From: Geoalkalibacter subterraneus
GTDB lineage: Bacteria; Desulfobacterota; Desulfuromonadia; Desulfuromonadales; Geoalkalibacteraceae
Direction of reading: 5' to 3'
Assembly (NCBI RefSeq): GCF_000827125.1
Contig: NZ_CP010311.1
Coordinates: 1,426,001-1,490,000, forward strand
Length of the DNA: 64,000 bases
This document shows, in pieces, positions 16,806-38,864 of the stretch. The first letter of the stretch is position 1; each line of letters opens with the position of its first letter. A program made the translations under genes and the position numbers. The notes under the pieces were generated by a model, which searched no databases, had not been told where the DNA came from, and saw nothing but the letters and a program-made list of their open reading frames with translations.

Positions 16806-16891
16806 TCAGCGACAATTAAAATTCCCGTTTCTTGAGAGCTGTTGACGACGGTGGCTGTTGGGACTTTTTGCCGCCGCCGCTTGCGGCTCTG

Positions 16892-17137: not shown

Positions 17138-17148
17138 GGGGTTTGCTC

Positions 17149-19414: not shown

Positions 19415-19624
19415 CCGCCATCCTTTCTTTAAAGATGGGCGGAAGCTTACAATCCCCTAAAAATTTCGGGAATTATAATTGTCGCCGGACGGGAGATTTA
19501 ATTGTCGCTGATCACACCAGTGATAAATCGGCCTCCTCATTCCGGCTGCGACAGCAAACTTATCCGATTTGGAGGCGAACAACAAGTTACTCTACGACAA
19601 GACGCCGCTGCGCGGCGTGCATTG

Positions 19625-20002: not shown

Positions 20003-20029
20003 GTCTACCTTTCTGCCTATCTTCCGGCC

Positions 20030-20102
20030 GCACAACGGTTGGGCTCAGCGTGTTTGCGGAACGCGTAGCGTGTAGCAAATCCGCTGGAGCCCTTTGTTAT
20101 GC
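20030..20102 (-). repeat. attC site (73 bp)
   Basis: Outer boxes GCACAAC and GTTATGC. Stem GGGCTCAGCG pairs with CGCTGGAGCCC. It is the attC of the following 122-residue cassette gene. Confidence 0.87.
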
Positions 20103-20465
20103 AGTGAACTTCTTCTCTATCACTCTAGCAACAAAGTTAGCTAAGGCACCAAGAGCAGCCTTAATTCCGTCCTGTTTGTATGCATCAATTGGATTACGTA
20201 CACGCAGCGCCCCCGAGGGAGTAAGTTTTAACCCCTCTCTCGGCCTTCGATTATTAGGCGATGAAAATTGGATCAAGCCCTCTTCTTTGAGATGAGTAAA
20301 TGCGTCATTTAAAGCTGACCTGCGACGGTTAGCCTCAGGGGTTATGTCCATCGAATCAAAAAAACCGATATTTCTGTCATCTAAAGTGATTTCCTCTGGG
20401 TATGACGCATCGAGTCTCTTGAGTATAATTTGCTTCGCTTCAATGAGTAATTTTCTTCCTGACAT
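20097..20465 (-). CDS. small cassette protein, winged-helix-like, unknown function
   Basis: 122 residues from MSGRKLLIEAKQ, chosen because AAAAGAG precedes this ATG; upstream starts would cross the cassette boundary at 20483-20489. It has ILKRLDASYPEEITL, NRRRSALNDAFTHLKEEGLIQ and REGLKLTPSGALRVRN, which reads like a winged-helix module with a beta wing. The basic C-terminal helix ends at attC. No partner is present in the cassette. Confidence 0.6.
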   Translation of the reverse strand: MSGRKLLIEAKQIILKRLDASYPEEITLDDRNIGFFDSMDITPEANRRRSALNDAFTHLKEEGLIQFSSPNNRRPREGLKLTPSGALRVRNPIDAYKQDGIKAALGALANFVARVIEKKFTA

Positions 20466-20482
20466 GGCAACTCTTTTATTTT

Positions 20483-20668
20483 GCATAACGAGCCTGTAGA
20501 AAAACGCATTTGACGGCAGCCAATTGTCCGCCAAGCGAATTCTTCCGAGACTCTGAAATTAGTTTTCTTCGGTTCTCCGGTTTCCCGGGATTTCCGCTTC
20601 AGGCCGTTAAAAATCGACTGTGGCAGGCCCCTTGGCACTTTTTACCGGGATTCCCCGTCTTTTCCCCC
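20483..20668. other. damaged attC start and gene-free gap
   Basis: The box GCATAAC (20483-20489) marks the start of the next attC. No second half is found: the palindrome is lost within a few bases and unrelated DNA follows up to the transposase relic and the RAYT gene. I see no gene in it. Confidence 0.5.
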
Positions 20669-20760
20669 TACAACACCCATCCATACCGATGAATCTTGAA
20701 AATGTTGTGCACCATGGTCATGAGTTGCCACTGGCCGTTCAGGGTACACCTCAGGGTCGG
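20668..20760 (-). pseudogene. IS1182-like transposase C-terminal relic
   Basis: On the minus strand the frame reads TLRCTLNGQWQLMTMVHNIF then KIHRYGWVL and stop. This is the end of IS1182-type DDE transposases (GxWxLxxMVHNIxKI). Nothing upstream continues the gene, so only about 30 codons remain. Confidence 0.5.
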
Positions 20761-20796
20761 ACCAAGACAACTACCAGACATCCTTAATCTTTGTGT

Positions 20797-21573
20797 TCAA
20801 AAATAGGTGTTTTTCTCTACTATAGGCTGATTTTGGGCTGGGAAATCCTCGCCATAGCCCTCTTCGGACTCACGCAAAACGCTACAATCGCCGCTCGCGA
20901 TGATGGCTCGGCTTTTTCCTCGTACACCAAGCAGACGTTGGGTTTTCAGGACAAACTCTTCACTTCCGACCGCAAGGCTTCTGGTCCAAGCCTCATTGCG
21001 CTGCAGGGCATTAGTCCGCAACGCTTCACTTATCCAAGAACCATGATGATCGGCCAGCGCTTGCAGAGTGTTCAGGCCGGCAGCGTCAACCAGCGCATCA
21101 AGATCAAGGAGCCGATTACGCCGCCGCTGTCCTTGAATTTCACGGTAACCGCCATGAACCCACTCTTGCGGATGACTGACGGCACCAGCGCGGACCATGT
21201 TCAGGTCGATGTACACCAGGCAGCGCAGTAAATGCTCACCGGATTCTATGACGGTGGCATGATAGCGATCTTCCCAGAAAGCGCCTTTGCGTTGCTTGCG
21301 CTGGTTATATTCCTGGCCTGTGCGGCCGGCGATCAGTTGCATGGCAGAAGGGATGCTGCCGGGGGGGCCATTGTCTTTCACCAGCAAGTGCACATGATTG
21401 CTGGTCACCGTGTAGTTGAGAAGGTTCAGGCCGAAGCGTTTGCGGGCCTCACCGAGCCAGAAAACAAAGCGGCTGCGGTCGCGGGCGAATTTAAGAAGGA
21501 ATTCCTTTTTGTGACAACGATGGGTGATATGCCAGATGCAGCCTGGGATGTAATGCCGATTGGCTCTTGCCAT
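20797..21573 (-). CDS. RAYT-type Y1 transposase, second copy (divergent)
   Basis: A 258-residue homologue of the gene at 9371-10117, alike but clearly diverged. Start MARANRHYIPGCIWHITHR behind GGGAGGGG; HUH in SNHVHLLVKD; Tyr in YIDLNMVRAG; FWEDRYHATVIE. It lies inside the array, between the 122-residue cassette and a truncated toxin gene. Its insertion or associated rearrangement removed most of a toxin gene and an attC site. Confidence 0.88.
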   Translation of the reverse strand: MARANRHYIPGCIWHITHRCHKKEFLLKFARDRSRFVFWLGEARKRFGLNLLNYTVTSNHVHLLVKDNGPPGSIPSAMQLIAGRTGQEYNQRKQRKGAFWEDRYHATVIESGEHLLRCLVYIDLNMVRAGAVSHPQEWVHGGYREIQGQRRRNRLLDLDALVDAAGLNTLQALADHHGSWISEALRTNALQRNEAWTRSLAVGSEEFVLKTQRLLGVRGKSRAIIASGDCSVLRESEEGYGEDFPAQNQPIVEKNTYF

Positions 21574-21735
21574 GGGTTTTCCCCTCCCCGAAGGATTTCA
21601 TGTCATTGCAGCTAAAGAGTTCCATTTTGACCTCAAAAATCGAGCCATAGTGGGATTTTTGGAGGTGTTTATTTAATTTTTTGACTTTATTTCAGATATT
21701 TACCTTGGTCCGACCCCACCTGGGTCCCACCTGCA

Positions 21736-21797
21736 TAGTAATCAATGGCGAGTTGGAACTCCTTTTGGGCCTCTGGATGAAAGGAGTACTTCATCAT
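21736..21797 (-). pseudogene. ParE/RelE toxin, N-terminal fragment
   Basis: The first ~20 codons match the toxin at 10813-11112 exactly (MMKYSFHPEAQKEFQLAIDY). Identity stops at 21736, where RAYT-associated DNA begins. The remaining ~80 codons and the cassette's attC are missing. Confidence 0.85.
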
Positions 21798-22015
21798 GAA
21801 AAACGTTTCCAGACCTCACTAAAAACATCTTCTCCTGGTATCGGCTTCACGGCGCCAGATTTAATCTCGCCAAGTCTCCGCTTGGCCACTTCAGCCCACT
21901 TCTTATCGACTTCTGACTCAGGAGGGTTCAAACTCTTAAGAACGGTGTCAGCTACCCGCGCCCGCTCCTCCACGGGGAGAGACTCAATTTCTCGCAACAA
22001 ATCTTCTGTTTTCAT
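21794..22015 (-). CDS. orphan antitoxin, identical to that at 11109-11330
   Basis: 73 residues, unchanged relative to the first copy, and with its native upstream region intact (22016-22100), unlike copy 1, which is split by the IS3-type element. Its own toxin is destroyed. It could therefore still neutralise the toxin made from the first copy and act as an anti-addiction gene in trans. Confidence 0.85.
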   Translation of the reverse strand: MKTEDLLREIESLPVEERARVADTVLKSLNPPESEVDKKWAEVAKRRLGEIKSGAVKPIPGEDVFSEVWKRFS

Positions 22016-22100
22016 GTGTGCATCTCCACAAAGGATGAATTCGTGTATTCTCTCAGTTTACTACTGTATGGGCATCGGCACTTGCGCCCATTCGCTTTTT

Positions 22101-22173
22101 GCCGAACGCCAGCCTTCACCGGCGGGGATGTAGCGCAGCGGAATCCCCGTCCGAGTGCAAGGCATTGTTAGGA
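22101..22173 (-). repeat. attC site of HNH cassette, copy 2
   Basis: Outer boxes GCCGAAC and GTTAGGA. It is the same site as at 14472-14544 apart from a G-to-C change in the arm, which also turns a phenylalanine codon into leucine at the protein's end. Confidence 0.92.
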
Positions 22174-22742
22174 TTTTCTTCTCCCTCTGACGGCACCCAA
22201 AGCATGAGCTCTTCCAGGGGAGGGAACTTGGTCGGTAGTAGTCGCACATCGAAAGGCATATCCCCATCTACAAGCTGACAAAGGGGTGTGCTCATATACC
22301 CGTTTTGATCGCAATATCGAGCGACAATTTTGGTGTATCGCCGAAGAAGAAGTATCGATGGGAAGAAGCCCTTGGATGTTGCCCACACCAGCATGTCTCG
22401 GCCCTGCTTTGAGCTATTACAACTGCGGCAAGCCCAGATTAGGTTATCCGCATCATCGGGCCCACCACGGATTCTCGGTATGAGGTGATCGACCGCCAAA
22501 CTATCCTTCGCGCCGCAGTAATAACACGCCTGTGGCGCGGTCATCTTCAGCCGTTCGTCGTCATATAACGACCGCATGGCAATCTTTCCGGACAGCAACC
22601 CATGGTAGGTTCTGTTGCGGATTATGTGGTGTATCCGTTGATATTTTTTGACCCCATCCTCCAGGGCTGAGTGCGCACGCGCAAGGTTCGCATACGACCA
22701 CGATATCTGCTCTTGAACTGTTTCTGGTGTTGGTGTCGCCAT
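22116..22742 (-). CDS. HNH endonuclease, cassette copy 2
   Basis: 208 residues, the same protein as at 14487-15113 with all zinc and HNH residues kept. It differs at a few bases (for example in the arm of attC and in the sequence just before the start codon). Its neighbours differ from those of copies 1 and 3, so it moved as a separate cassette and has had time to diverge slightly. Confidence 0.88.
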   Translation of the reverse strand: MATPTPETVQEQISWSYANLARAHSALEDGVKKYQRIHHIIRNRTYHGLLSGKIAMRSLYDDERLKMTAPQACYYCGAKDSLAVDHLIPRIRGGPDDADNLIWACRSCNSSKQGRDMLVWATSKGFFPSILLLRRYTKIVARYCDQNGYMSTPLCQLVDGDMPFDVRLLPTKFPPLEELMLWVPSEGEENPNNALHSDGDSAALHPRR

Positions 22743-22754
22743 GCTTCTCCTTAA

Positions 22755-22816
22755 TCCTAACGCTTCGCCTCAGCGGCGCCCGCCTTTAGCGCGTCCGCTG
22801 GAGGCGTTTGTTCAAG
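22755..22816 (-). repeat. attC site (62 bp) abutting the recombinase/HUH unit, copy 1
   Basis: Outer boxes TCCTAAC and GTTCAAG. Arms AACGCTTCGCCTC.. and ..GGAGGCGTTTGTT. There is no minus-strand gene behind it: the recombinase/transposase unit begins at its GTTCAAG box. Confidence 0.82.
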
Positions 22817-22986
22817 TAAGCCGCTTCGCGGCAGAAGTTCCTAAAATCAACACCTTCTCGCCTGCTCTCCCCCTCCTACCGTCTCATTTTTCCTAAAAAA
22901 TACTTCCGTACCAGTCGATCATCTGCTTTTCATATCCACAAGCCGTCTTCCGCGGCGAAACCTCAACTGTGGAAAGGAGAACCATT

Positions 22987-23868
22987 ATGATGACCGACTG
23001 GTACGAACAATCGATGCGGGCCCTACAGCTATCCGGCAAAGGCGACAAAACTCAGCAGATGTACACCCGCTCGGTGCGCAAATTGGTGGAGTTTTACGAG
23101 AAAACTCCCGATGCCATCACCGAGACCGAACTGCAGGACTACTTCCTCCATCGCATCAATATCGACGAGTGGTCTCCCGGCACCATGCGCATCTGCCATG
23201 CCGGGATCCGCTTCTTTTTTACCAACGTCCTCGATCGCTCATGGCGCACCTTTGAATACCTGCATGTCCAGAAGGAGCGACGCCTGCCGACTGTACTCAG
23301 CTGCGAGGAGGTGCAGCGCGTTCTGGCCTGCGTCTATGCCTTTCACAACCGCGTCTTTCTCACCACCGTCTACTCCTGCGGCCTGCGTCTGCAGGAGGCC
23401 CTGCATCTAGAAGTCTCCGACATCGACAAGCAGCGCATGATGATTCATGTTTATCGCGGCAAGGGGGCCAAGGACCGCTATGTGCCGCTACCGATGAGCA
23501 CCTACAAGCTGTTGCGCAAATACTGGGCGACTCACCGTCATCCGCGCCTGCTCTTCCCGGCCCTGGGGCGCAACGGCAAGAATGCTCATAAATCTCAATC
23601 CCCCATGGCTGTCAGCAGCGTTCAGGGGGCCATGAAGAACGCCGTGCGCGAGGCGGGCATCCATAAAAAAGAGGTCAAGATCCACACCCTGCGCCACTCT
23701 TACGCGACCCATCTGCTTGAGGAGGGCGTCAACATCCGCGTCATCCAAAAGTATCTTGGCCATTCTTCCCTCGACACCACCCTGATTTACCTGCACCTGA
23801 CCCAGAAGGGGAACGAGGATGCCTGCGCGCTGATCAACACTCTCATGGAGGGCCTCTTCCATGGATAA
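22987..23868 (+). CDS. tyrosine recombinase (XerC/D-like) upstream of IS91 transposase, copy 1
   Basis: 293 residues from the ATG behind AAAGGAG; a GTG six codons earlier is weaker. It has an N-terminal SAM-like domain (residues ~5-90), then the catalytic Arg in VYSCGLRLQEALHLEVSDID, Lys in YRGKGAKDRYVPLP, HTLRHSYATHLLEEG (His, Arg), YLGHSSLDTTLIYLHLT (His, Tyr). All active-site residues are present. It overlaps the transposase gene by 8 bp, so the two are translationally coupled. Confidence 0.9.
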   Translation: MMTDWYEQSMRALQLSGKGDKTQQMYTRSVRKLVEFYEKTPDAITETELQDYFLHRINIDEWSPGTMRICHAGIRFFFTNVLDRSWRTFEYLHVQKERRLPTVLSCEEVQRVLACVYAFHNRVFLTTVYSCGLRLQEALHLEVSDIDKQRMMIHVYRGKGAKDRYVPLPMSTYKLLRKYWATHRHPRLLFPALGRNGKNAHKSQSPMAVSSVQGAMKNAVREAGIHKKEVKIHTLRHSYATHLLEEGVNIRVIQKYLGHSSLDTTLIYLHLTQKGNEDACALINTLMEGLFHG

Positions 23869-24964
23869 GCTGACAGCGATCTTCCGCAGCTACGGCCCCG
23901 AATATCTTCAGCAACACGGTGCCAAGGTCCCGCCCCAGCACCGGAAGGTGATCGAAGCGATCTTACGCTGCCGGACTCCTGAGAGCGGCACCACCATTTA
24001 CCGTTGCGAGCACTGCGGCGAGGACCACGTGCTCCATCTGGGCTGCGGCAACCGTCACTGCCCGATCTGCCAGTATCGCAAGGGCCGCCAGTGGCTCGAA
24101 CGGCAGCTGGAACGCCAGATGCCGGGGGCGCATTTTATGCTGACCTTCACCGTCCCCGAGCCGTTGCGTCCCTTTATGCGCAGCAACCAGCGGCTGGCCT
24201 ACTCAGCGCTGTTCGCTGCCTCTTCGGAGGCGATGAAGCGGTTGGCCAAGGATTCCCGCTTCATCGGGGGCGACCTGCCGGGGTTCTTCGGCGTGCTGCA
24301 TACCTGGGGCCGCCAACTACAGTATCACCCGCACATCCACTATGTGGTGACCGGCGGGGCTATCGCTTCGGGCACCGGGCAATGGATGCCATCGCGCAAC
24401 GAGTTCTACCTGCCGGTTCAGGCCCTCTCACTCATCGTTCGCGCCAAGTTCCGCGAGCGCATCAAGAAGGCCGGTCGGCTCGGCGAGATCCCCAGCAGCG
24501 TATGGAAAACCGACTGGAACGTCAACTGCCAGGCCGTCGGCGACGCCGAAGGTTCGCTGAAGTATCTGGCGCCCTACGTCTTTCGTGTGGCGATCTCCAG
24601 CAGTCGCATCGTTTCGGTGGAAAAGGGCCGGGTCACCTTCAGCTACAAGAAGAAGGGGAGCAGTCGACCACGCACCCGCGAAGTGTCCGCCCTGGAGTTC
24701 CTCCGACTGTTCCTGCAACATGTGCTGCCCTGGGGCTTTATGAAGGTGCGCTACTACGGTTTCTTGAGCCCTGGATGCCGCATGCCTCTTGCGGAGGTTC
24801 GCGCCCGCATTCAGATTGCCCACGGCTTTGCCGTCACGGTACCGAAGGTGATGCCGGAACCACAACCGCCGTTAAGCTGTCGGCAGTGTGGGAAAGAACT
24901 TGAGGGGTACCGTCTGATCTTGCCACCGAAACGCAAACCTGAGAAGCGGGCGCGGACGGGGTAG
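23861..24964 (+). CDS. IS91-family HUH (Y2) transposase, copy 1
   Basis: 367 residues. N-terminal zinc finger (C37; CEHCG 49-53; CGNRHCPIC 62-70), HUH metal motif HPHIH at 156-160 in RQLQYHPHIHYVVTGG, and the tyrosine pair Y235 and Y239 in YLAPYVFR. These are the parts of a rolling-circle transposase that works on single-stranded DNA. A C-terminal CxxC (SCRQCGKE) is also present. The protein looks intact. Confidence 0.92.
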   Translation: MDKLTAIFRSYGPEYLQQHGAKVPPQHRKVIEAILRCRTPESGTTIYRCEHCGEDHVLHLGCGNRHCPICQYRKGRQWLERQLERQMPGAHFMLTFTVPEPLRPFMRSNQRLAYSALFAASSEAMKRLAKDSRFIGGDLPGFFGVLHTWGRQLQYHPHIHYVVTGGAIASGTGQWMPSRNEFYLPVQALSLIVRAKFRERIKKAGRLGEIPSSVWKTDWNVNCQAVGDAEGSLKYLAPYVFRVAISSSRIVSVEKGRVTFSYKKKGSSRPRTREVSALEFLRLFLQHVLPWGFMKVRYYGFLSPGCRMPLAEVRARIQIAHGFAVTVPKVMPEPQPPLSCRQCGKELEGYRLILPPKRKPEKRARTG

Positions 24965-25243
24965 AAACACCCTGCACCTCTCCAAAACCCCATGTCGGGC
25001 CCTCAATGGTCTGCCCAGAACCTCTTTCTGAGCAGGAAGGCACCGGTGCGCCCAACGTGCTAAAAATGAGGTAACTTGGCAGGAAATCCGAGGGTATTTT
25101 TACTAGCATTTGCCCTCTTGGCGCCGTCAAGGGGCTCGCAAGGCCCCATTGGCAGGTTCATTTCTCCCCCACCCGGGCCATCGCCCCCCCCCCACCTGAA
25201 AACCAATCCCCTATATTGAAAGATCGTGCCCAAACTCGGGCTT

Positions 25244-25300
25244 CTTGAACAATGGATTGAGACGACGCCTTCGGGTCGTATCAATCCTTATTGGTTATGT
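25244..25300 (-). repeat. attC site (57 bp)
   Basis: Outer boxes CTTGAAC and GTTATGT. Arms AACAATGGATTGAGACGAC and GTCGTATCAATCCTTATT pair around GCCTTCGG. It is identical to the attC at 32669-32725 up to GTTA although the following cassettes differ, so the site seems to belong to the recombinase/HUH unit rather than to the cassette. Confidence 0.82.
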
Positions 25301-25856
25301 GCTTTACTGCAAAGTTTAGGACTGCCCGCACTTGGCTTGATAAAGCAGGTTTAGTTATTAACCAGCTGGCTATTGCTGGTGATGTTTTGTAATACGTCTT
25401 CACAAAAGCTCTGCCCGCGACATTTTTTAGTAACGTGTTGTCTCGATATTTGCGCAGCTCTCTTACTTGGTAACACGAAGGATCACCATAAACAGCAGTA
25501 GCAATGAAGCAATTACTGAATGTTTTTACTGTTGCAGCACAATAGGGGCAAACCGACTTTTCTGGGCTACCTCGATAAGTAATGATTCTAGGAACAATTT
25601 TTTTACCACAACTTGGACAGTTGATTCTGTCATCAGCAGGCCGAGTATTTTGCGAGGGCACTTTCGCAGTAATTGTGACATTGATTGCTCTTGGCCCTTT
25701 ATTTCCAGGCTTTGACTCAAACTGAACCGAATCGCCATTTGACGGTAACGATGCGCCATTGATGCTCTGAACATTAAAGTAATAATCTTCTCCGCCTTCA
25801 GATGTAATGAAGCCGTAACCCTTCTCTGAGCTGAACCATTTTACAGTGCCTTGCAC
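25281..25856 (-). CDS. cold-shock domain / zinc-ribbon / CFI-box protein
   Basis: 191 residues from a GTG start (reads MQGTVKWFSSEKGYGFI) behind AAGGAGAT, which gives the standard start of cold-shock domains. Residues 1-65 form the nucleic-acid-binding CSD. CPSCGKK ... CPYCAAT (~80-110) is a zinc ribbon. CFIATAVYGDPSCYQVRELR and on is a CFI-box helical region. It probably binds RNA or single-stranded DNA. Base composition is AT-richer than the core genome. Confidence 0.82.
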   Translation of the reverse strand: MQGTVKWFSSEKGYGFITSEGGEDYYFNVQSINGASLPSNGDSVQFESKPGNKGPRAINVTITAKVPSQNTRPADDRINCPSCGKKIVPRIITYRGSPEKSVCPYCAATVKTFSNCFIATAVYGDPSCYQVRELRKYRDNTLLKNVAGRAFVKTYYKTSPAIASWLITKPALSSQVRAVLNFAVKHITNKD

Positions 25857-25877
25857 GACATCTCCTTTTCTTATTGC

Positions 25878-25961
25878 ACATAACGCCCGCAGCACGCGCG
25901 GCTTTGTAATGGAGGCGCAGCCGCAATGAAAAAGCCGTCGCTGTGCCTGCGATTGTTAACT
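25878..25961 (-). repeat. attC site (~84 bp)
   Basis: Outer boxes ACATAAC and GTTAACT; arms AACGCCCGCAGCAC and GTGCCTGCGATTGTT. A second candidate outer box GTTAAAC lies at 25982-25988, which would make the site 111 bp. Confidence 0.75.
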
Positions 25962-25982
25962 TTTTTCTCGGTCAGCAATTTG

Positions 25983-26546
25983 TTAAACGCCCTTACTGAC
26001 TGAGACAAACGATTTGTTGAGAGCCTTAAGCTCTTTTACCAAGTTTGGCCCGTACCCGTGTTCTGCGGATTCACTACGCTCAAATGTCCGCACATCGAGA
26101 GACGATGTTGCGCTCAACCGTCTAGAGTAAAATCTTGGCTTTCCGACCGCATAATACTGGGCCTCAACTTGTATCGGTTCATCACCGATATATTTGTAAA
26201 GACCGCCGTATTGCCCCCAAGTTAGCGTGATCTGCTGCCCTGGTGCTAAAAATGGAATGCCAGTGACGATGGGGCCAACCTCCATAGACTCGGGCATTTT
26301 CTCTGGCACCTCTATGCTGAAAGCTTCGTAGGGAAGTGGCCTAGTCGGTTTAAATTTTATGCTGTGAGCAGCACCATTACCGATGTTCTTGATAATCAGA
26401 TTTACAATGGAAGGTCGTTTAATATCAGGATCGGCATAGACGATAACGACCGGATCAGTTGATGACCGAAAGACAGCGTATGTGACCACTACAGACGCTG
26501 TTGCAATCAAGGCCATAAAGACCGAAATCCAGTTACCAACATCCAT
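25983..26546 (-). CDS. membrane-anchored cassette protein, unknown
   Basis: 187 residues. One N-terminal transmembrane helix (WISVFMALIATASVVVTYAVF, residues ~6-26), then a soluble domain with PVVIVYADPDIKRPSIVNLI and PGQQITLTWGQYGGLY that looks beta-rich. No family is recognised. The design (short lumenal start, one helix, cytoplasmic sensor-like domain) is common among integron cassettes of unknown role. Confidence 0.7.
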   Translation of the reverse strand: MDVGNWISVFMALIATASVVVTYAVFRSSTDPVVIVYADPDIKRPSIVNLIIKNIGNGAAHSIKFKPTRPLPYEAFSIEVPEKMPESMEVGPIVTGIPFLAPGQQITLTWGQYGGLYKYIGDEPIQVEAQYYAVGKPRFYSRRLSATSSLDVRTFERSESAEHGYGPNLVKELKALNKSFVSVSKGV

Positions 26547-26565
26547 CTCGTTGCGACCTCCAAGA

Positions 26566-26640
26566 AGTTAACGCCAAGCGTAACCGGCCGGGCTTAGAGC
26601 GGAGCGAAAAGCCCGGTCCGAGTTGACGCTTTTGTTAGCA
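26566..26640 (-). repeat. attC site (75 bp)
   Basis: Outer boxes AGTTAAC and GTTAGCA. Stem CCGGCCGGGCTT pairs with AAGCCCGGTCCG. It is the attC of the restriction-modification cassette. Confidence 0.87.
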
Positions 26641-27561
26641 GTTAGTTTCGATAAGGTTCGCAATTTCACGAAACTTATCTGCCAGCAGCTTAGAGGCTTC
26701 AGGATTACCTGTCGCGCTTGCGGTAGTTTTCGCGATGCGTTGGAGGGCTGCATCGACATCCTTATCAGTAGCGCTTTCAGTAAATATCGCAAGGAACTGT
26801 TGCCAAGCTGCGAGCTGAATTCCCGCCAGCTTCTCTTCGAATAGTTCGGCTATGTAGTCCTCCATAACACCTGCGCGTGCCAACCGCCCAAAGTTACCGC
26901 CTCCATCACTCTCCGGGCGGTCGGAGATCATGTCCGATTTAGTCGGATAAAACTGAGCCACTGAAGACAGCTGAATATCTCTACTGGAAGTTCCCTTTCG
27001 TTTGTGCTGCCAATACCAATTTCTATATTCCGCAGCGTGCCTTGCACCCATTAGAAATGGTTCGAAGACTATTGGTGATCCGGAAATCACATTCGAAAGC
27101 GCCCAAGGGACAACGACCAAAAGATCCGCTGGCGCACAGACAGCAGGCGTCACTTTATAACGAAAGCTGGGCTCCTTTTCTTTGGCAAGCACATACCATC
27201 CTTTGAGCTCGATACCCAAAAGGACGTCGGGCTCTACATCCGGCGCACTGGCTTTCAAAACCACGTCAGGGAATGTTTGCGGTTGCCGCTCGAATTCATA
27301 GAGCGCGTATCGCTGCTCTGGATCCCACACCCCTCTCAATTTGTTTAAAGAGTTTACAACCTGCTGTTCAATAGTCGCACCAAGCGACGAGTTGAACGCA
27401 AACAAATCCGTTGCTAACACGCCGTCAATGTTAAGAGTACTCTCGAAACGTGAAGGCAATGAATAAATAGCCTTCTTGACGGCCACAAACAATTCATAAT
27501 GAGCCCATTTTTCCTCTGGCGCGGTAGCCGTAGGCGGACTAGGAATTTCGCTTTCGCTCAT
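26635..27561 (-). CDS. probable type II restriction endonuclease (PD-(D/E)xK)
   Basis: 308 residues. A PD-(D/E)xK active site is plausible: TFPDVVLK (D99) followed by PDVLLGIELKGW (E118, K120). No close named enzyme is recognised. The assignment rests on this motif and on the gene lying directly downstream of a DNA methyltransferase gene, overlapping it by 23 bp within a single cassette. The protein is mostly helical at both ends. If the pair is active, it would be a self-contained selfish defence cassette. Confidence 0.7.
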   Translation of the reverse strand: MSESEIPSPPTATAPEEKWAHYELFVAVKKAIYSLPSRFESTLNIDGVLATDLFAFNSSLGATIEQQVVNSLNKLRGVWDPEQRYALYEFERQPQTFPDVVLKASAPDVEPDVLLGIELKGWYVLAKEKEPSFRYKVTPAVCAPADLLVVVPWALSNVISGSPIVFEPFLMGARHAAEYRNWYWQHKRKGTSSRDIQLSSVAQFYPTKSDMISDRPESDGGGNFGRLARAGVMEDYIAELFEEKLAGIQLAAWQQFLAIFTESATDKDVDAALQRIAKTTASATGNPEASKLLADKFREIANLIETNC

Positions 27562-28603
27562 ACAGTGGAAGCTCCTGATAGATGGCGTTTATTCTTTCCG
27601 AAGCCGCATCGAAGTACTCGGGAATAAGTTCGGACGCGTAACATTGCCTGCCCATTCGTAGAGATGCGACGGTAGCTGAGCAAAGCCCCCCGAAGGGCTC
27701 CCAGACCACATCGCCTGGATCAGTTGAGGCTCCGATAATCCGCTCCATTAGCCGCAATGGCTTCTGGTTGGCATGCAACGATTGCATGCCCTTTCTAATG
27801 ATTCGCTCTTTGCCTCGAACTGCCGGCTCTTGCCAGACATTGGTGATGCCATGCACATGATTCCATTTAGCCCTCATGCGTTCCCATTTTCTTGCTGTAA
27901 GGTGTGTTTTACCATCAAGAGAAAAATATGGGCGGTCTGTATCTAGGCCATTTGCATTAGCATACTTGGCCAACATTTCCATCTTCTCGGGCGGCGGGAA
28001 GTACCATAAATCGCACTGCGTAAAATACTTCCGTGTTGCGGCATTCTTAACGCCACATGCTTCATTTGTTTTGTAGAGAGGCAATCCACTTCTTTGCCAC
28101 TCACTTCTGAGCCATTCTTTAATTGAGCAAGGCTTTCCGTCATAATCACGAAGCTGCACTTCTCGTACATACTGCACGCAAATCTCGGTTACGACAGGAA
28201 AGCCCCTGATCGTGTCTCCGTTACAGTTACCGGCAACATGCCCAATGCCTTTATCCCATATGTGTGCCGCCCTATACTTCCAGCCATGCAACTTCAATAC
28301 CTGGTGAACTTCAGCCCAAGCAAGCTCAGAACACCAAAACCACAGGGTCGTGTCGGCGCTAGCCTTCTTGCTCCACTCAGCGATGTGAGGCGCATACCAC
28401 TCTGCCAAACTCTCGACGCCATTCGGCTCACCTGGGAATTTCGCGAGCCCATAAGGGCCGTCCGAAACAATTGCTGTGGGAGTAGGCCACTCGCCATATT
28501 TCTCGAGTGAGTCTCCCAGATGGAGACTCACTTGAGGATGGGAGGCATCCTCAATCCGCAATGGTGCGGTTCTACGTTTTTGATACTTAATTATTTTTGC
28601 CAT
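27539..28603 (-). CDS. DNA methyltransferase, beta class (N6-adenine or N4-cytosine)
   Basis: 354 residues, start behind AGGAGCG. Motif IV is SDGPYG at 47-52, near the N-terminus. Motif I is DVVWEPFGGLCSATVAS near 298-314, towards the C-terminus. This order is typical of the beta class. SDGPYG departs from the usual (D/S/N)PPY but occurs in a branch of modification methylases. It should protect host DNA from the endonuclease encoded downstream. It is the first gene of the cassette. Confidence 0.87.
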   Translation of the reverse strand: MAKIIKYQKRRTAPLRIEDASHPQVSLHLGDSLEKYGEWPTPTAIVSDGPYGLAKFPGEPNGVESLAEWYAPHIAEWSKKASADTTLWFWCSELAWAEVHQVLKLHGWKYRAAHIWDKGIGHVAGNCNGDTIRGFPVVTEICVQYVREVQLRDYDGKPCSIKEWLRSEWQRSGLPLYKTNEACGVKNAATRKYFTQCDLWYFPPPEKMEMLAKYANANGLDTDRPYFSLDGKTHLTARKWERMRAKWNHVHGITNVWQEPAVRGKERIIRKGMQSLHANQKPLRLMERIIGASTDPGDVVWEPFGGLCSATVASLRMGRQCYASELIPEYFDAASERINAIYQELPLYERKRNS

Positions 28604-28683
28604 TATTCGCTCCTGCTAATGCGGCTAATAGCCGTAGTTTATCAAGGTGCGCCCCTTGTCCCTAGTGCGCTGAGTTCTCCCAC

Positions 28684-28758
28684 TGCTAACGCTCCGCATA
28701 ACCGGATGGCAATGGAGCGTAGCGGAATTGCCAGTCCGAGTTGATGCGGTTGTTATCT
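28684..28758 (-). repeat. attC site (75 bp)
   Basis: Outer boxes TGCTAAC and GTTATCT. Arms CCGCATAACCGGATGGCAAT and ATTGCCAGTCCGAGTTGATG. It is the attC of the three-lipoprotein cassette. Confidence 0.86.
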
Positions 28759-28767
28759 GATTTAGTT

Positions 28768-29187
28768 TTAATCAGCTTGGTGAGCAGTTAAGAACATCGC
28801 TTTTTCTAACGCTGCAAAAAACTGTTGGTATGGCTCCGGGTCCGTAACCGGCTGTACGTTATACTGTGCATTAGCACGCACGAGAAGCTGAGTTGTCCCT
28901 CGCGGTCGAACTGTTACCGTCATGCGGAGTGCATAACCCTTCAATTTTGTAGCACTGACGGTTCCAAGGGTTGCATCTGCTTTGTCGAGCACAAATCCTA
29001 AATCTTGCAGTGTTGCCATTACAGTTCTTAATGTCTTTTCTTTATCTGTTGTATCAAAAGCTCGTGTCTGAATGCTCCTCAGTTGAACTTGACTCGCTTC
29101 AGAATCAAGAAGGCGTTGTTGGGTTGTTGCGCACCCTGTAAGAAAAACAACTAATGCGACTAATAAAAGCGACAATTTTGTTTTCAT
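28768..29187 (-). CDS. lipoprotein of unknown function (third gene of lipoprotein cassette)
   Basis: 139 residues with a lipoprotein signal (MKTKLSLLLVALVVFLTGCA, Cys at 19). The mature part shares features with the preceding gene product: RxxQTRxFDTTDKEKTLRT, LQDLGFVLDKADATLG, VSATK, and a C-terminal YQQFFAALEKAMFL. The two are paralogues from an old duplication. It overlaps the upstream gene by four bases. Confidence 0.75.
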   Translation of the reverse strand: MKTKLSLLLVALVVFLTGCATTQQRLLDSEASQVQLRSIQTRAFDTTDKEKTLRTVMATLQDLGFVLDKADATLGTVSATKLKGYALRMTVTVRPRGTTQLLVRANAQYNVQPVTDPEPYQQFFAALEKAMFLTAHQAD

Positions 29188-29711
29188 ATTTCTTGTCCCT
29201 CCAGAAAAATTGCTTTTGAAAGCTTATCAAAAAATTCTTGGTACACTGCGGGATCAATTATACTCTCCGACTTAGTTACTTGCCCTTGTGTATTCCAAAC
29301 AATACGCTGGAAAGTTACTCTCACAGCTATATAATTTTCCTGGTCCCCTATAGGGCGAGTTACTACACTCGCCCGCATTTTTTGTTCTTTGTCGACTGCC
29401 ATTGCCCCCCCGCCCAAAGCTGCAACTATAACTGCTGTGACGATTTGCCCTGCATTTTCAGCACTTCTTTGTTTAGATGCTGTTATTAAACCAAGATTTG
29501 TTTCGCTTTCATCAATATTGAATCCCATATCCTGAAGAAGCCCAGCACAAGCGGCGAGTATTTTCCCCTCATCTTTAGTTTCGTACTTCCGCGTTTGCAT
29601 TTGACGTTCTGCAAGAGACTCAGGACTTAAGGTTAAAGCATCTTTTGGTATTGTTTGGCACCCGGCTACAAGAAAAGCGCCGACAAGAAATATTGATAAA
29701 AACTTTTTCAT
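29184..29711 (-). CDS. lipoprotein of unknown function, paralogue of its downstream neighbour
   Basis: 175 residues. Lipobox LVAGC (Cys at 18). Mature part: RQMQTRKYETKDEGKILAAC, LLQDMGFNIDESETNLGLIT, then a glycine/alanine-rich hydrophobic stretch (IVTAVIVAALGGGAMAV), and YQEFFDKLSKAIFLEGQ at the end. The hydrophobic stretch is absent from the smaller paralogue. It probably acts in the periplasm or at the outer membrane. Confidence 0.75.
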   Translation of the reverse strand: MKKFLSIFLVGAFLVAGCQTIPKDALTLSPESLAERQMQTRKYETKDEGKILAACAGLLQDMGFNIDESETNLGLITASKQRSAENAGQIVTAVIVAALGGGAMAVDKEQKMRASVVTRPIGDQENYIAVRVTFQRIVWNTQGQVTKSESIIDPAVYQEFFDKLSKAIFLEGQEI

Positions 29712-29723
29712 CTTCCTGCCCCC

Positions 29724-30140
29724 TTAAAATCGTGATGTATGATATGCAAAATCACGCACCTTTTTGTCATTGTCGAACTTAATTATTATAGTGAGGGTTT
29801 GTTGACTTGTTGAGGATGAACCAGCACTTCCACGATAGCCAAGCAAAATCAAAGTTCCATAACCTGAACTTTCTGATTGAACTCTATCAGTAGATATTTT
29901 GTCATAAATCCAGACTTCACGACCCTGTTCATCAGTAGTAACAATATTTGGCGAACCAAGAGCAGCCGCTACTTCTGCACCAGACATCCCTTTCTTGATT
30001 TCTTTTTGGACTGTCCCCACAGTCAATTTATCCCCTCGCAGCCCTTCCTGTGTATCTGACGCATGACGTGCGGCAACGCACCCTGTAAATAATGCAACGA
30101 GACAAATAAACACAATTGCCTTCAACACCTTTTTGAACAT
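29724..30140 (-). CDS. lipoprotein with SmpA/OmlA-like domain (first gene of cassette)
   Basis: 138 residues. Lipobox LFTGC (Cys at 21). The mature domain has TVGTVQKEIKKGMSGAEVAAAL, GSPNIVTTDEQGREVWIYDK and LTIIIKFDNDKKVRDFAYHT, the pattern of BamE/SmpA-type small lipoproteins. Base composition of the whole cassette is AT-rich compared with the core genome. Three co-oriented lipoprotein genes in one attC-bounded unit form a real operon. Confidence 0.78.
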   Translation of the reverse strand: MFKKVLKAIVFICLVALFTGCVAARHASDTQEGLRGDKLTVGTVQKEIKKGMSGAEVAAALGSPNIVTTDEQGREVWIYDKISTDRVQSESSGYGTLILLGYRGSAGSSSTSQQTLTIIIKFDNDKKVRDFAYHTSRF

Positions 30141-30185
30141 TTTTTACCTCCTTTGCGCGTTGAATAGGTGATTCGTTTCATTTAC

Positions 30186-30241
30186 AGATAACGCCTAAAG
30201 CAGCGGCGCGTTTACGCGTCCGCTGCCTTTACTTGTTCAAG
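30186..30241 (-). repeat. attC site (56 bp) abutting the recombinase/HUH unit, copy 2
   Basis: Outer boxes AGATAAC and GTTCAAG. Stem GCAGCGGCGCG pairs with CGCGTCCGCTGC. It differs from the attC at 22755-22816 except for the final TTGTTCAAG, where the shared mobile unit begins. Confidence 0.83.
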
Positions 30242-30411
30242 TAAGCCGCTTCGCGGCAGAAGTTCCTAAAATCAACACCTTCTCGCCTGCTCTCCCCCTC
30301 CTACCGTCTCATTTTTCCTAAAAAATACTTCCGTACCAGTCGATCATCTGCTTTTCATATCCACAAGCCGTCTTCCGCGGCGAAACCTCAACTGTGGAAA
30401 GGAGAACCATT

Positions 30412-31293
30412 ATGATGACCGACTGGTACGAACAATCGATGCGGGCCCTACAGCTATCCGGCAAAGGCGACAAAACTCAGCAGATGTACACCCGCTCGGT
30501 GCGCAAATTGGTGGAGTTTTACGAGAAAACTCCCGATGCCATCACCGAGACCGAACTGCAGGACTACTTCCTCCATCGCATCAATATCGACGAGTGGTCT
30601 CCCGGCACCATGCGCATCTGCCATGCCGGGATCCGCTTCTTTTTTACCAACGTCCTCGATCGCTCATGGCGCACCTTTGAATACCTGCATGTCCAGAAGG
30701 AGCGACGCCTGCCGACTGTACTCAGCTGCGAGGAGGTGCAGCGCGTTCTGGCCTGCGTCTATGCCTTTCACAACCGCGTCTTTCTCACCACCGTCTACTC
30801 CTGCGGCCTGCGTCTGCAGGAGGCCCTGCATCTAGAAGTCTCCGACATCGACAAGCAGCGCATGATGATTCATGTTTATCGCGGCAAGGGGGCCAAGGAC
30901 CGCTATGTGCCGCTACCGATGAGCACCTACAAGCTGTTGCGCAAATACTGGGCGACTCACCGTCATCCGCGCCTGCTCTTCCCGGCCCTGGGGCGCAACG
31001 GCAAGAATGCTCATAAATCTCAATCCCCCATGGCTGTCAGCAGCGTTCAGGGGGCCATGAAGAACGCCGTGCGCGAGGCGGGCATCCATAAAAAAGAGGT
31101 CAAGATCCACACCCTGCGCCACTCTTACGCGACCCATCTGCTTGAGGAGGGCGTCAACATCCGCGTCATCCAAAAGTATCTTGGCCATTCTTCCCTCGAC
31201 ACCACCCTGATTTACCTGCACCTGACCCAGAAGGGGAACGAGGATGCCTGCGCGCTGATCAACACTCTCATGGAGGGCCTCTTCCATGGATAA
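30412..31293 (+). CDS. tyrosine recombinase upstream of IS91 transposase, copy 2
   Basis: The 293-residue product appears identical to the copy at 22987-23868, with the Arg/Lys/His-Arg/His/Tyr catalytic set complete. Both copies being intact argues for recent spread. Confidence 0.9.
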   Translation: MMTDWYEQSMRALQLSGKGDKTQQMYTRSVRKLVEFYEKTPDAITETELQDYFLHRINIDEWSPGTMRICHAGIRFFFTNVLDRSWRTFEYLHVQKERRLPTVLSCEEVQRVLACVYAFHNRVFLTTVYSCGLRLQEALHLEVSDIDKQRMMIHVYRGKGAKDRYVPLPMSTYKLLRKYWATHRHPRLLFPALGRNGKNAHKSQSPMAVSSVQGAMKNAVREAGIHKKEVKIHTLRHSYATHLLEEGVNIRVIQKYLGHSSLDTTLIYLHLTQKGNEDACALINTLMEGLFHG

Positions 31294-32389
31294 GCTGACA
31301 GCGATCTTCCGCAGCTACGGCCCCGAATATCTTCAGCAACACGGTGCCAAGGTCCCGCCCCAGCACCGGAAGGTGATCGAAGCGATCTTACGCTGCCGGA
31401 CTCCTGAGAGCGGCACCACCATTTACCGTTGCGAGCACTGCGGCGAGGACCACGTGCTCCATCTGGGCTGCGGCAACCGTCACTGCCCGATCTGCCAGTA
31501 TCGCAAGGGCCGCCAGTGGCTCGAACGGCAGCTGGAACGCCAGATGCCGGGGGCGCATTTTATGCTGACCTTCACCGTCCCCGAGCCGTTGCGTCCCTTT
31601 ATGCGCAGCAACCAGCGGCTGGCCTACTCAGCGCTGTTCGCTGCCTCTTCGGAGGCGATGAAGCGGTTGGCCAAGGATTCCCGCTTCATCGGGGGCGACC
31701 TGCCGGGGTTCTTCGGCGTGCTGCATACCTGGGGCCGCCAACTACAGTATCACCCGCACATCCACTATGTGGTGACCGGCGGGGCTATCGCTTCGGGCAC
31801 CGGGCAATGGATGCCATCGCGCAACGAGTTCTACCTGCCGGTTCAGGCCCTCTCACTCATCGTTCGCGCCAAGTTCCGCGAGCGCATCAAGAAGGCCGGT
31901 CGGCTCGGCGAGATCCCCAGCAGCGTATGGAAAACCGACTGGAACGTCAACTGCCAGGCCGTCGGCGACGCCGAAGGTTCGCTGAAGTATCTGGCGCCCT
32001 ACGTCTTTCGTGTGGCGATCTCCAGCAGTCGCATCGTTTCGGTGGAAAAGGGCCGGGTCACCTTCAGCTACAAGAAGAAGGGGAGCAGTCGACCACGCAC
32101 CCGCGAAGTGTCCGCCCTGGAGTTCCTCCGACTGTTCCTGCAACATGTGCTGCCCTGGGGCTTTATGAAGGTGCGCTACTACGGTTTCTTGAGCCCTGGA
32201 TGCCGCATGCCTCTTGCGGAGGTTCGCGCCCGCATTCAGATTGCCCACGGCTTTGCCGTCACGGTACCGAAGGTGATGCCGGAACCACAACCGCCGTTAA
32301 GCTGTCGGCAGTGTGGGAAAGAACTTGAGGGGTACCGTCTGATCTTGCCACCGAAACGCAAACCTGAGAAGCGGGCGCGGACGGGGTAG
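31286..32389 (+). CDS. IS91-family HUH (Y2) transposase, copy 2
   Basis: 367 residues, apparently identical to the copy at 23861-24964: zinc finger, HPHIH and YLAPY motifs all kept. It is coupled to the upstream recombinase by an 8-bp overlap. Confidence 0.92.
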   Translation: MDKLTAIFRSYGPEYLQQHGAKVPPQHRKVIEAILRCRTPESGTTIYRCEHCGEDHVLHLGCGNRHCPICQYRKGRQWLERQLERQMPGAHFMLTFTVPEPLRPFMRSNQRLAYSALFAASSEAMKRLAKDSRFIGGDLPGFFGVLHTWGRQLQYHPHIHYVVTGGAIASGTGQWMPSRNEFYLPVQALSLIVRAKFRERIKKAGRLGEIPSSVWKTDWNVNCQAVGDAEGSLKYLAPYVFRVAISSSRIVSVEKGRVTFSYKKKGSSRPRTREVSALEFLRLFLQHVLPWGFMKVRYYGFLSPGCRMPLAEVRARIQIAHGFAVTVPKVMPEPQPPLSCRQCGKELEGYRLILPPKRKPEKRARTG

Positions 32390-32668
32390 AAACACCCTGC
32401 ACCTCTCCAAAACCCCATGTCGGGCCCTCAATGGTCTGCCCAGAACCTCTTTCTGAGCAGGAAGGCACCGGTGCGCCCAACGTGCTAAAAATGAGGTAAC
32501 TTGGCAGGAAATCCGAGGGTATTTTTACTAGCATTTGCCCTCTTGGCGCCGTCAAGGGGCTCGCAAGGCCCCATTGGCAGGTTCATTTCTCCCCCACCCG
32601 GGCCATCGCCCCCCCCCCACCTGAAAACCAATCCCCTATATTGAAAGATCGTGCCCAAACTCGGGCTT

Positions 32669-32725
32669 CTTGAACAATGGATTGAGACGACGCCTTCGGG
32701 TCGTATCAATCCTTATTGGTTAGCT
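32669..32725 (-). repeat. attC site (57 bp)
   Basis: Outer boxes CTTGAAC and GTTAGCT. It is identical to 25244-25297 through GTTA. It stands at the downstream side of the HEPN-like cassette gene but probably arrived with the mobile unit. Confidence 0.82.
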
Positions 32726-33396
32726 TTTTCATACCAATACATTTTACCCTTAGGTAATATCTCTTTCTCGTAAACCCTATCTTCGATCTGGCTGATTTTT
32801 CGCAAAACCGCTAGCCTCAAACTTTTTACTACTTCTGTAAAGGGAATGTCGGGGGCATCAGAAAAATCAGGTTGCATGAGTTCTCTGTATAATTTCGGCT
32901 TTTCATTTGATCTTTTGTTCGGGTAAAGAACCAAGGCGATTTTTACTTCTTCAAAATTATCCGCACCGCTATGAGCTGCAAAGTTGCGGCGCATGTGCAT
33001 AATTTTGTCATGACGCTCCCAGTACTTTTCGTCCAGCATCTTCCTCTCCAGTTTGATTTTCCGACCTTCGCAGGTAGTAAAGCATTTCCCATAAAATGTT
33101 AATGCTGCGACATACAGATCTTTAACAAGGTTGTAGGTTTTTCGGTCTGGTGAAATTTGAGGAGAGTTCCTACGCTCTTCTAAATACAATTCATCTATTT
33201 CTTCGAGCCATACCAGAACATTCCAAAGATCTTTTTCAATTAGCGCGTACCCCGCTAACTGTTGTGAAATTTTATCTTTTAGCTCTATTCGAGGAGCTCT
33301 TTTTCTTTTATGGAAGTACTTTGTGATCCTCTTAATCTGATTCGGATCAAGAATCTCATGCACTTCCCATCCGTCTTCTTGTTTAACTTTTCGCAT
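32713..33396 (-). CDS. cassette protein with HEPN-like Rx4H motif
   Basis: 227 residues from MRKVKQEDGW, the first ATG inside the cassette and behind a GAGAG site; a start 10 codons earlier would fall in the neighbouring attC. The protein is largely helical. Residues 137-142 read RNFAAH in KIMHMRRNFAAHSGA, the Rx4-6H signature of HEPN ribonucleases, placed in a long helix as expected. HEPN proteins are common RNase toxins and defence effectors. No nucleotidyltransferase partner is present. The motif alone is short, so the call is tentative. The base composition is AT-rich. Confidence 0.55.
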   Translation of the reverse strand: MRKVKQEDGWEVHEILDPNQIKRITKYFHKRKRAPRIELKDKISQQLAGYALIEKDLWNVLVWLEEIDELYLEERRNSPQISPDRKTYNLVKDLYVAALTFYGKCFTTCEGRKIKLERKMLDEKYWERHDKIMHMRRNFAAHSGADNFEEVKIALVLYPNKRSNEKPKLYRELMQPDFSDAPDIPFTEVVKSLRLAVLRKISQIEDRVYEKEILPKGKMYWYEKANQ

Positions 33397-33410
33397 AATT
33401 CTCTCAGGGA

Positions 33411-33522
33411 AGCTAACGCCTTGCACAGCGGAAACCGTAGTGTAGTGGCTTTGTGCAACAATGAGCGAAGCGAATACAAAGCCGCGGAGCGGAGGTTTTC
33501 CGACTGGTGCAACTTGTTAGAT
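33411..33522 (-). repeat. attC site (112 bp)
   Basis: Outer boxes AGCTAAC and GTTAGAT. Long arms, AACGCCTTGCACAGCGGAAA and TTTTCCGACTGGTGCAACTT. This is the longest attC in the array, and it serves the SMR cassette. Confidence 0.82.
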
Positions 33523-33532
33523 GCATACTGGA

Positions 33533-33877
33533 CTAATGTGCACTGGTTTTTGAAAGCAAGTTGAGAACAACAACGCCACCAACGATTAAACCCATGCCAA
33601 CATACCCCCAAAGGTCAAGTTTTTGCCCGTGCATGAACCATGCGACTAGAGTTACTAAAACTATGCCAAGCCCTGACCAAATTGCATATGCAATACCAAC
33701 AGGGATTGATTTCAGAGTAAGTGAAAGTAAATAGAAAGCAGCGCCATAGCCAATAATAACAAGCAGCGATGGGGCGATTTTAGTAAAACCTTCACTAGAC
33801 TTAAGACTAGATGTTGCAATTACTTCACAAATAATAGCAGCGGATAAGAATAACCAGTTTTTCACAGTTTTCTCCAA
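33533..33877 (-). CDS. small multidrug resistance (SMR) efflux protein, EmrE/QacE-like
   Basis: 114 residues with four transmembrane helices. The essential membrane Glu is in [14 protein letters not shown], followed by [39 protein letters not shown] and [14 protein letters not shown]. It works as a dimer that exchanges protons for lipophilic cations such as quaternary ammonium compounds. qac-type genes are a classic cassette type, although this one is in a chromosomal array. About 85 bp follow before the next cassette boundary at 33961. Confidence 0.92.
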
Positions 33878-33967
33878 TGTATATATTTTTCGAAAGATTA
33901 AACTAATCCTTTAAAAATGAGCAGTCTTGTTCTTTTGAAGAGGCTGTGAGCACATGGGGCATCTAAC

Positions 33968-35640
33968 GGTTCATGATAACCGGCGGCGTGCGACCTTTGC
34001 ACACCACCGAATTTTTTCGAGAAAGTCGGATAGCCCATTCCGTCCGGTTGATTTTATGGTTGTGCGCCTTGAATTGTCTTCTGAGTAACTTAACCCTGGT
34101 TCTTTTAAATTCAGGTTGTTACAAAGCGGCAATTTTGCCCTCGGTCGGAACAAGTTCGAATCCGAGGTGCTTGGCATTGCGCTTCAGGTTTTGTACGAGT
34201 CGCGACTGGTATCGCTCCTCGTAGTAGTCCTGGCCAAGGTCGATGTATGATGTTCGATTTTTGAGCATTTTGTAGACTATGGTCGCAATCTTTCGGGCGG
34301 TTGCCGTTATGGCCTTGGGTGCGCCCAACCTTGCCTTCATGCGGCGGAAGTAGCTGCCCAGGTAGCTCTTTGATCTGGTCAAGCTAAAGGCGGCCATGCG
34401 GAAAGCTTGCGCTGCCCGATTGGCGTTCTTTTGGGTGGCACTGCTCAGGACCTTACCGCCGCTAATCTTCGCTCCCGGAGCCAACGACATCCAGGAAGTG
34501 AAATGTTTATCGGTTTTCCAGCGGCTCATGTCTATGCCGATTTCAGCGATGATTTTCAGGGCAGAGGTGGTGTCGATTCCGTCAATTTCCGTCAGATCAA
34601 CGCCGGATATGCGCATCAAAGCTTCATCGATGCTCGCTGGTGGCTTGTCGTCACCAGAATCGCCCTCGGTACCTATGGCATCGAAAGATTTGAGTTGGGC
34701 CAGTATTTGCCGGTCACACTCGTTTATCTTAGCCAGATAGAATTCGTACAGTTCTACAGCTTGCTGCAGGGAGAAGAGGTGTTCAGGCCGGAAATTGCCC
34801 TGCAAAGAGCGAGCGATGGTCTTCGCGTCGTTCTTGCAGCGATTATCCCGCAAGGCTGCCAATGTGTCGGGATCGCGCTCCCCCTCCAGGATCGCTTTGA
34901 TGATGCGCATCCCGGTTGCTCCTGTGATGTTGCTGACAACGTTATGCAGTTGCAGATTCATCTGGGCCATCGCCTTTTGCATGTGCTGGATATGAGACCC
35001 GGAGATCTTGACCAGCGTCGCCCTTTGCCGGACATAGGCGCGAAGCGCACACACCTGATCTGCAGGACGAAACGCCCCGCGCAGAAGGCCATAGGTGTGC
35101 AACTGCTGCAACCACTGGCAGTCCAGGACGTCGCTCTTTCTACCAGGGACATTCTTGACATGCCGCGCGTTGACCAGCCTCACCTCGAAGCCGTGGCTTT
35201 CGAGAATCTCAAAGACCGGGATCCAGTAGATCCCAGTGGACTCCATGGCGACCGTGGTAACGCCACAGCAGAGAAGCCAATCGGCCAAACGCTCAAGGTC
35301 ATCGGTGAAGGTGGAGAATTCGCGGACCGGTTCGGGATCTGCCCCCTCGGGGACCGCTACAAAATGACTCTTGGAGCCGACGTCAATTCCGGCAGCACAG
35401 GCGTTGAGATGCACCAGATGCTTCGGTAACCGCATAGGCTTTTTCTTGGATGTCTTCTTCTGCTTCATGACTACGGCCTCCTGGAGAAATAAGGCAGACC
35501 GAAAAGGGGAACTGTCGAATGCGGCTCTCTTCTGAACGGGATAGCAAAACGCTTCACCAATGACAAAATCGCCAGTTCCCGGACCATGCTATTCAACGGG
35601 CACAAAGGCACCAGTGATCAACGTCAACTATTTTTCCGGG
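33968..35640 (-). mobile_element. IS110/IS1111-family element inside an attC region, copy 2
   Basis: Same as 15133-16805, offset by 18,835 bp. It begins right after the box ATCTAAC (33961-33967). It is part of the 4.9-kb cassette that is repeated as one block. The flanking box differs from copy 1 only upstream of CTAAC, in keeping with a joint inside the box. Confidence 0.75.
34119..35468 (-). CDS. IS110-family transposase, copy 2
   Basis: 449 residues, apparently identical to the gene at 15284-16633, with Asp, Glu and Asp-Asp of the RuvC-like domain and the C-terminal Tnp20 domain intact. Confidence 0.92.
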   Translation of the reverse strand: MKQKKTSKKKPMRLPKHLVHLNACAAGIDVGSKSHFVAVPEGADPEPVREFSTFTDDLERLADWLLCCGVTTVAMESTGIYWIPVFEILESHGFEVRLVNARHVKNVPGRKSDVLDCQWLQQLHTYGLLRGAFRPADQVCALRAYVRQRATLVKISGSHIQHMQKAMAQMNLQLHNVVSNITGATGMRIIKAILEGERDPDTLAALRDNRCKNDAKTIARSLQGNFRPEHLFSLQQAVELYEFYLAKINECDRQILAQLKSFDAIGTEGDSGDDKPPASIDEALMRISGVDLTEIDGIDTTSALKIIAEIGIDMSRWKTDKHFTSWMSLAPGAKISGGKVLSSATQKNANRAAQAFRMAAFSLTRSKSYLGSYFRRMKARLGAPKAITATARKIATIVYKMLKNRTSYIDLGQDYYEERYQSRLVQNLKRNAKHLGFELVPTEGKIAAL

Positions 35641-35726
35641 TCAGCGACAATTAAAATTCCCGTTTCTTGAGAGCTGTTGACGACGGTGGCTGTTGGGACT
35701 TTTTGCCGCCGCCGCTTGCGGCTCTG

Positions 35727-35972: not shown

Positions 35973-35983
35973 GGGGTTTGCTC

Positions 35984-38837: not shown

Positions 38838-38864
38838 GTCTACCTTTCTGCCTATCTTCCGGCC

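Follow-up and report, generated by a model that had tools for sequence, protein, structure and literature searches.

The window analyzed here, a 64,000-nt stretch of the Geoalkalibacter subterraneus genome (NZ_CP010311.1, positions 1,426,001-1,490,000, forward strand), very probably contains a type II restriction-modification (R-M) operon that has been captured as a single integron gene cassette. The operon consists of two minus-strand genes: M (27539..28603), which encodes a beta-class DNA amino-methyltransferase of 354 aa, and R (26635..27561), which encodes a predicted PD-(D/E)XK type II endonuclease of 308 aa. The reading frames overlap by 23 bp, the start of R lying inside the last codons of M, and an SD-like AGGAG is found 6 nt before the ATG of M. 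Each gene is present in a single copy in the 3.72-Mb genome. An earlier note on this DNA had described a complete restriction-modification pair in one cassette. The two reading frames and their overlap are as it reported, with SDGPYG and DVVWEPFGG both within M, and its interpretation is supported by the family and fold of M, the fold of R, the pairing of the two genes across genomes, the covariation of their distances, and the attC/intI context.

The cassette is delimited by two attC sites, both on the minus strand. The attC of the neighbouring cassette nearer intI (28684..28758) places one border at its R' core (GTTAGCA), and the cassette's own attC (26566..26640) holds the stop codon of R (TGC TAA C). 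As excised, the cassette would extend over 26572..28689 (minus strand), about 2118 bp between the two R' cores, including an 80-base leader between attC and M (28604..28683, minus strand) in which an inverted repeat, CGGCTA/TTAGCCG, can be recognized by eye. Both sites are predicted to fold into imperfect hairpins (z -3.91 for 28684-28758 and -4.59 for 26566-26640, versus 200 shuffles). They are part of a cassette array (10740..39576, minus strand) of 13 attC-like sites that is interrupted by insertion sequences. The integron integrase gene intI (40207..41205, plus strand, 332 aa) reads away from this array, and its product is a tyrosine recombinase that matches TIGR02249 with 503 bits (cut-off 265). 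The arrangement is that of an integron gene cassette, with attC-bounded genes in line with the array and intI; with a single pair of attC cores enclosing M and R, the integrase could excise and insert them jointly. The GC content of the cassette, 50% against the 57% of a 200-kb genome sample, suggests that it is of foreign origin.

The attC sites were scored with a covariance model trained on seven window sites, both borders of the R-M cassette among them. In the window this model identifies 13 sites at E up to 5 (the weakest at 0.022), all on the minus strand; six are outside the training set, three of them at E 2e-5 or weaker. Across the whole genome there are at least 13 sites at E <= 1, 11 of them in the window, a count that is a lower bound, as 150 of 726 first-look candidates were scored.

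The array contains several other features. Three ORFs that encode the HNH portion of IscB-like proteins (14487-15203, 22116-22742, and 38880-39587, minus strand) have in common a 300-nt stretch that is 99-100% identical, and each adjoins a similar attC (14472, 22101, and 38865), so that one HNH cassette recurs within the array. An element that carries a XerC/D-like recombinase together with an IS91 transposase occurs as two direct copies (about 22808-24964 and 30233-32389) on either side of the stretch that holds the R-M cassette, and a third copy of the recombinase is found in the same genome (G000:C1, about 1,376,000). A block of IS110 and IS21 genes is also duplicated (about 15128-19414 and 33963-38249, its extent judged from matching ORF sets). 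The product of the neighbouring cassette at 25281-25895 (minus strand) combines a cold-shock domain with a CFI-box-CTERM domain. On another contig (L193; G000:C2:184500-188500), a lone attC-like site (186430-186500, E 3e-9) directly follows a DNA methyltransferase-like ORF (L193 906-1928), itself preceded by an ORF resembling a NERD nuclease domain, both ORFs recognized by eye; this is possibly a second modification cassette.

A promoter scan of 26500-28850 found one promoter-like site where 2.1 are expected, with no convincing promoter before M, and intI is roughly 11.5 kb away from the R-M cassette, beyond intervening insertion elements. The cassette may therefore be silent. It is possible, if somewhat doubtful, that it is a genuine R-M unit that is stockpiled unexpressed in this host, far from the integron promoter; some relatives are indeed broken (R is split in L007, L066, and L099, and M in L050). 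Against this, both window frames are intact, with conserved motifs and the SD-like sequence before M, and the pair retains 77% (R) and 83% (M) identity to its counterpart in Larsenimonas salina, whereas a useless pair should decay. A silent cassette is in any case compatible with the restriction-modification reading, a statement about the activity of the pair once it is expressed.

M matches PF01555 (N6_N4_Mtase) at 1.3e-17 (64.9 bits, cut-off 26.7), which places it in that family, and its motif IV precedes motif I (SDGPYG at residues 47-52 and VVWEPFGG at 299-306). The consensus of motif IV is (D/N/S)PP(Y/F). M relatives have DGPY, DGAY, or DGGY, mostly the first two, keeping the D and the Y with a G in the second position, and the motif aligns to the DPPY of MboIIA. 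A profile of 40 M sequences compared with the PDB retrieves MboIIA (4.9e-15), 8urk (M.BceJIV; 1.4e-14), and CcrM (1.7e-13), and the predicted fold of M (pLDDT 87.1) matches CcrM with a Foldseek E of 4e-13. Because CcrM, M.BceJIV, and MboIIA are all N6-adenine enzymes by their entry names, N6-adenine is most likely the product of M; we infer rather than assign the base type, since the N4-cytosine enzymes of a rotifer and PvuII are also among the fold matches.

R has no family match in Pfam, NCBIfam, or PHROG. Among the PADLOC models, REase_II PDLC03583 gives a weak match (2.4e-6, 24.9 bits) restricted to residues 90-181, and this model is matched at 1e-3 or better by 55 of 55 aligned members of the R family, window R included. 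The claim in the earlier note that R shows no recognizable similarity was thus too strong, given the PADLOC match and the 176 relatives found in one genome scan. PDB sequence searches with R alone or with an R profile returned chance matches only. A confident AlphaFold model of R built from 55 sequences (pLDDT 89.8, pTM 0.88) found nothing at or below 0.001 with Foldseek, the best match being HincII (E 0.12), and likewise nothing at or below 0.001 among viral models. In a structural second look, 44 of the 50 matches shown are restriction endonucleases, representing six enzymes: SwaI (Z 7.5), NlaIV (5.9), HincII (5.8), EcoRV (5.6), NaeI (4.8), and DpnI (4.6). The remaining six are unrelated proteins with Z of 5.2 or less. 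A Z below 8 may mean merely a common arrangement, so the best value for R is moderate; the likeness of the predicted model supports PD-(D/E)XK membership, short of proof. The PD-(D/E)xK-like nature of R proposed in the earlier note is upheld to that extent, with restriction enzymes as the nearest folds and no non-nuclease fold found for R.

Consistent with this assignment, R carries a PD...ELK motif, with FPD-99 and GIE-118-L-K-120 on neighbouring predicted strands, making D99, E118, and K120 the putative catalytic residues, along with a conserved E65. We compared these positions in 87 M-R pairs (R longer than 200 and M longer than 250 residues, window pair included, L080 and L098 removed as near-duplicates). 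D99 and E65 are identical in all 87 R proteins; E118 and K120 are invariant as well, although the search pattern G[IL]ELKGW accounts for part of this invariance.

The two genes are also closely associated across genomes. From the 176 R relatives in the scan of genome contigs, 80 were kept for locus analysis, and 76 of these loci have an M relative next to R (74 upstream on the same strand and two, L068 and L075, on the opposite strand). The pairing is therefore more than chance, and the adjacent, separate M and R genes at these 76 loci are the arrangement of a type II system. The other four loci (L036, L048, L071, and L072) are at contig ends, the sequence breaking off at R or shortly before; L036 retains the last 38 residues of M. 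M is present at all eight viral-contig loci, two of which are again phages Xavia and Tortellini; two single-protein searches of viral contigs found no relative. Among plasmid and phage matches (14 in total, nine regions examined), an annotated methyltransferase adjoins R in eight regions. In the ninth, L007, R is in two pieces and no M was found, as expected if R is not tolerated without M. The distance matrices of M and R across the 87 pairs are correlated (r 0.815, a value reached by 0 of 2000 permutations), in part a reflection of shared descent. These observations bear on the idea of a non-classical pair, in which R would be a nuclease serving some other purpose (such as action on modified or damaged DNA) and M would protect only indirectly. 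DpnI is a methyl-dependent enzyme, and its presence among the fold matches of R fits such a role; the near-obligate one-to-one pairing, the covarying divergence of M and R, the match of R relatives to a type II REase model, and the absence of a full M at only four contig ends among 80 loci make it very improbable.

In plasmid records, M relatives (E 1e-20) outnumber R relatives (E 1e-5), 15 to 10, with nine records common to both. This surplus, and four Clavibacter records in which M matches partially and R not at all (one of which, when examined, had no R annotated alongside), would be in keeping with M acting on its own, in an epigenetic or anti-restriction role, and R being a passenger, but we give this little credence, as R is intact with its putative catalytic residues and two of the six M-only records (Aeromonas veronii pAV7K and Nostoc) carry beside M, on the opposite strand, a diverged REase matching the same model, PDLC03583 (6.1e-46 for the Aeromonas protein and 7.6e-19 for a 152-residue Nostoc ORF).

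The type II R-M reading of the window pair is further supported by the Aeromonas plasmid. Its M is 48% identical to window M over 67%, and its REase gene is preceded by an HTH ORF with a weak match (2.7e-4) to restriction control proteins. When compared with the R family, the Aeromonas REase aligns with an hhalign probability of 94% over 117 columns, the catalytic region included, which connects R with a catalogued family of type II restriction enzymes. The M and REase genes are convergent in the Nostoc and Aeromonas loci (L190 and L191), so that one M family occurs in two architectures.

Palindrome avoidance, assessed in pooled loci, in six carrier genomes, and in a repeat on subsets, did not indicate a consistent target palindrome. 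In 93 pooled loci (near-duplicates included), AGTACT, GGGCCC, and CTCGAG are the lowest under the highest-order model. AGTACT did not stand out in whole-genome counts across 24 genomes; the control for these counts, the pattern reversed, is itself another palindrome and a poor benchmark. Counts were also made in 200-kb samples from six pair-carrying genomes, from the genome of the window, and from one relative lacking an R match, and the lowest palindrome differed among the samples. CATATG is low, with a ratio of 0.07-0.30, in five of the six genomes, but TTCGAA and others are low in several too, and no target is proposed. Some of the sampled genomes appear rich in R-M systems.

The family ranges from planctomycetes to a bin labelled as an archaeon, and is found on plasmids, in mycobacteriophages, and in at least two integrons; in a search of 194 genomes of the same class it was found in the window's own genome only. 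To look for further integron settings, a home-made attC scan of the loci was dropped as unspecific (532 matches in a 1.6-Mb background) and the covariance model was used in its place. Across 95 loci this model, whose training on a single integron may cause it to overlook attC sites of other types, identifies a site in L036 only (27 bits, E 0.003, folding z -4.40), 12 bases past the stop codon of R. Since L036 R is about 50% identical to window R, the family seems to have been captured by integrons on at least two occasions. More broadly, and tentatively, the pair might represent an unnamed, cross-phylum type II R-M family with an atypical DGxY motif IV and an undescribed recognition sequence, a family that integrons would have acquired on more than one occasion as a ready two-gene cassette.

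In the mechanism that we propose, M would methylate both strands of the host's DNA at a specific site, probably a palindrome, as suggested by one M serving one R. R, with its predicted EcoRV/HincII/SwaI-like fold, would cut the same site when it is unmethylated, for example in incoming phage or plasmid DNA. The enzymes with the nearest folds are blunt cutters, and only for this reason do we guess that R is a blunt cutter as well. Translation of R would be expected to follow that of M, because M is first and R starts inside its end, an order that would shield a new host cell on arrival of the cassette. The integrase would move M and R together by excision and insertion. As the earlier note suggested, the recognition sequence may be new, and an addiction effect might conceivably travel with the defence function. 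If active, the pair would be a self-contained defence unit, movable by the integrase in one step. R relatives are named 'hypothetical protein' in 14 of 14 annotated plasmid and phage matches, and this family of hypothetical proteins would then gain a testable function. Members of the family occur on plasmids, one of them a drug-resistance plasmid from skin bacteria, as well as in phages, on bacterial contigs, and in integrons, so its target might be readable from existing long-read methylation data.

Restriction and methylation are among the common functions of integron cassettes (PMC8618304), and in archaeal cassettes 8.3% of functionally assigned proteins are devoted to phage resistance by DNA methylation or restriction (PMC9668308). 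Some R-M systems are also known in integron cassettes (PMC9892861, which cites Buongermino Pereira 2020 for them; the word 'restriction' does not occur in the accessible main text of that 2020 paper, PMC7370490). As restriction genes in integron cassettes are already published, this kind of finding is known. The M-R pair is not discussed in the accessible portions of PMC10100872 (pTZC1) and PMC9957025 (a phage methylase). Literature searches by name (PLAsvaD; Tortellini with restriction) found no paper, nor was one on the window M-R family found in our literature searches, which is not proof of absence; the pair belongs to a widespread, apparently uncharacterised bacterial defence family.

The cassettes of these earlier reports share with the window pair their location in an integron, whereas the window M-R family is not named in the accessible portions of PMC8618304, PMC9668308, and PMC9892861. 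CcrM, M.BceJIV, and MboIIA share the motif order and fold of M, at about 20% identity over the fold and, in MboIIA, with DPPY in place of the DGPY or DGAY of the M family. The pAV7K member of PDLC03583 and R are distant members of a common family; in pAV7K the REase gene lies behind the HTH gene and converges on M, whereas in the window M is followed by R on one strand. Closer relatives are found on PLAsvaD, a Cupriavidus pauculus plasmid, the Cutibacterium plasmid pKB112, and in the Mycobacterium phages Tortellini and Xavia. These carry the same M and R families, annotated as a methyltransferase and a hypothetical protein, with M followed by R on one strand and a short overlap or gap between them; they are 40-46% (R) and 46-56% (M) identical to the window pair, and attC was not found in the regions searched. 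In pKB112 (Cutibacterium acnes) the pair (L005, 112-2116), its R annotated as a hypothetical protein, adjoins tet(W). The closest relative found is that of Larsenimonas salina (contig L012), where the covariance model trained on the window detects no attC and where initiator-like and recombinase ORFs close by give the contig a plasmid-like appearance by eye. Its R has a slightly longer C-terminus than window R, and the pair, at 77% (R) and 83% (M) identity, has the identical 23-bp overlap.
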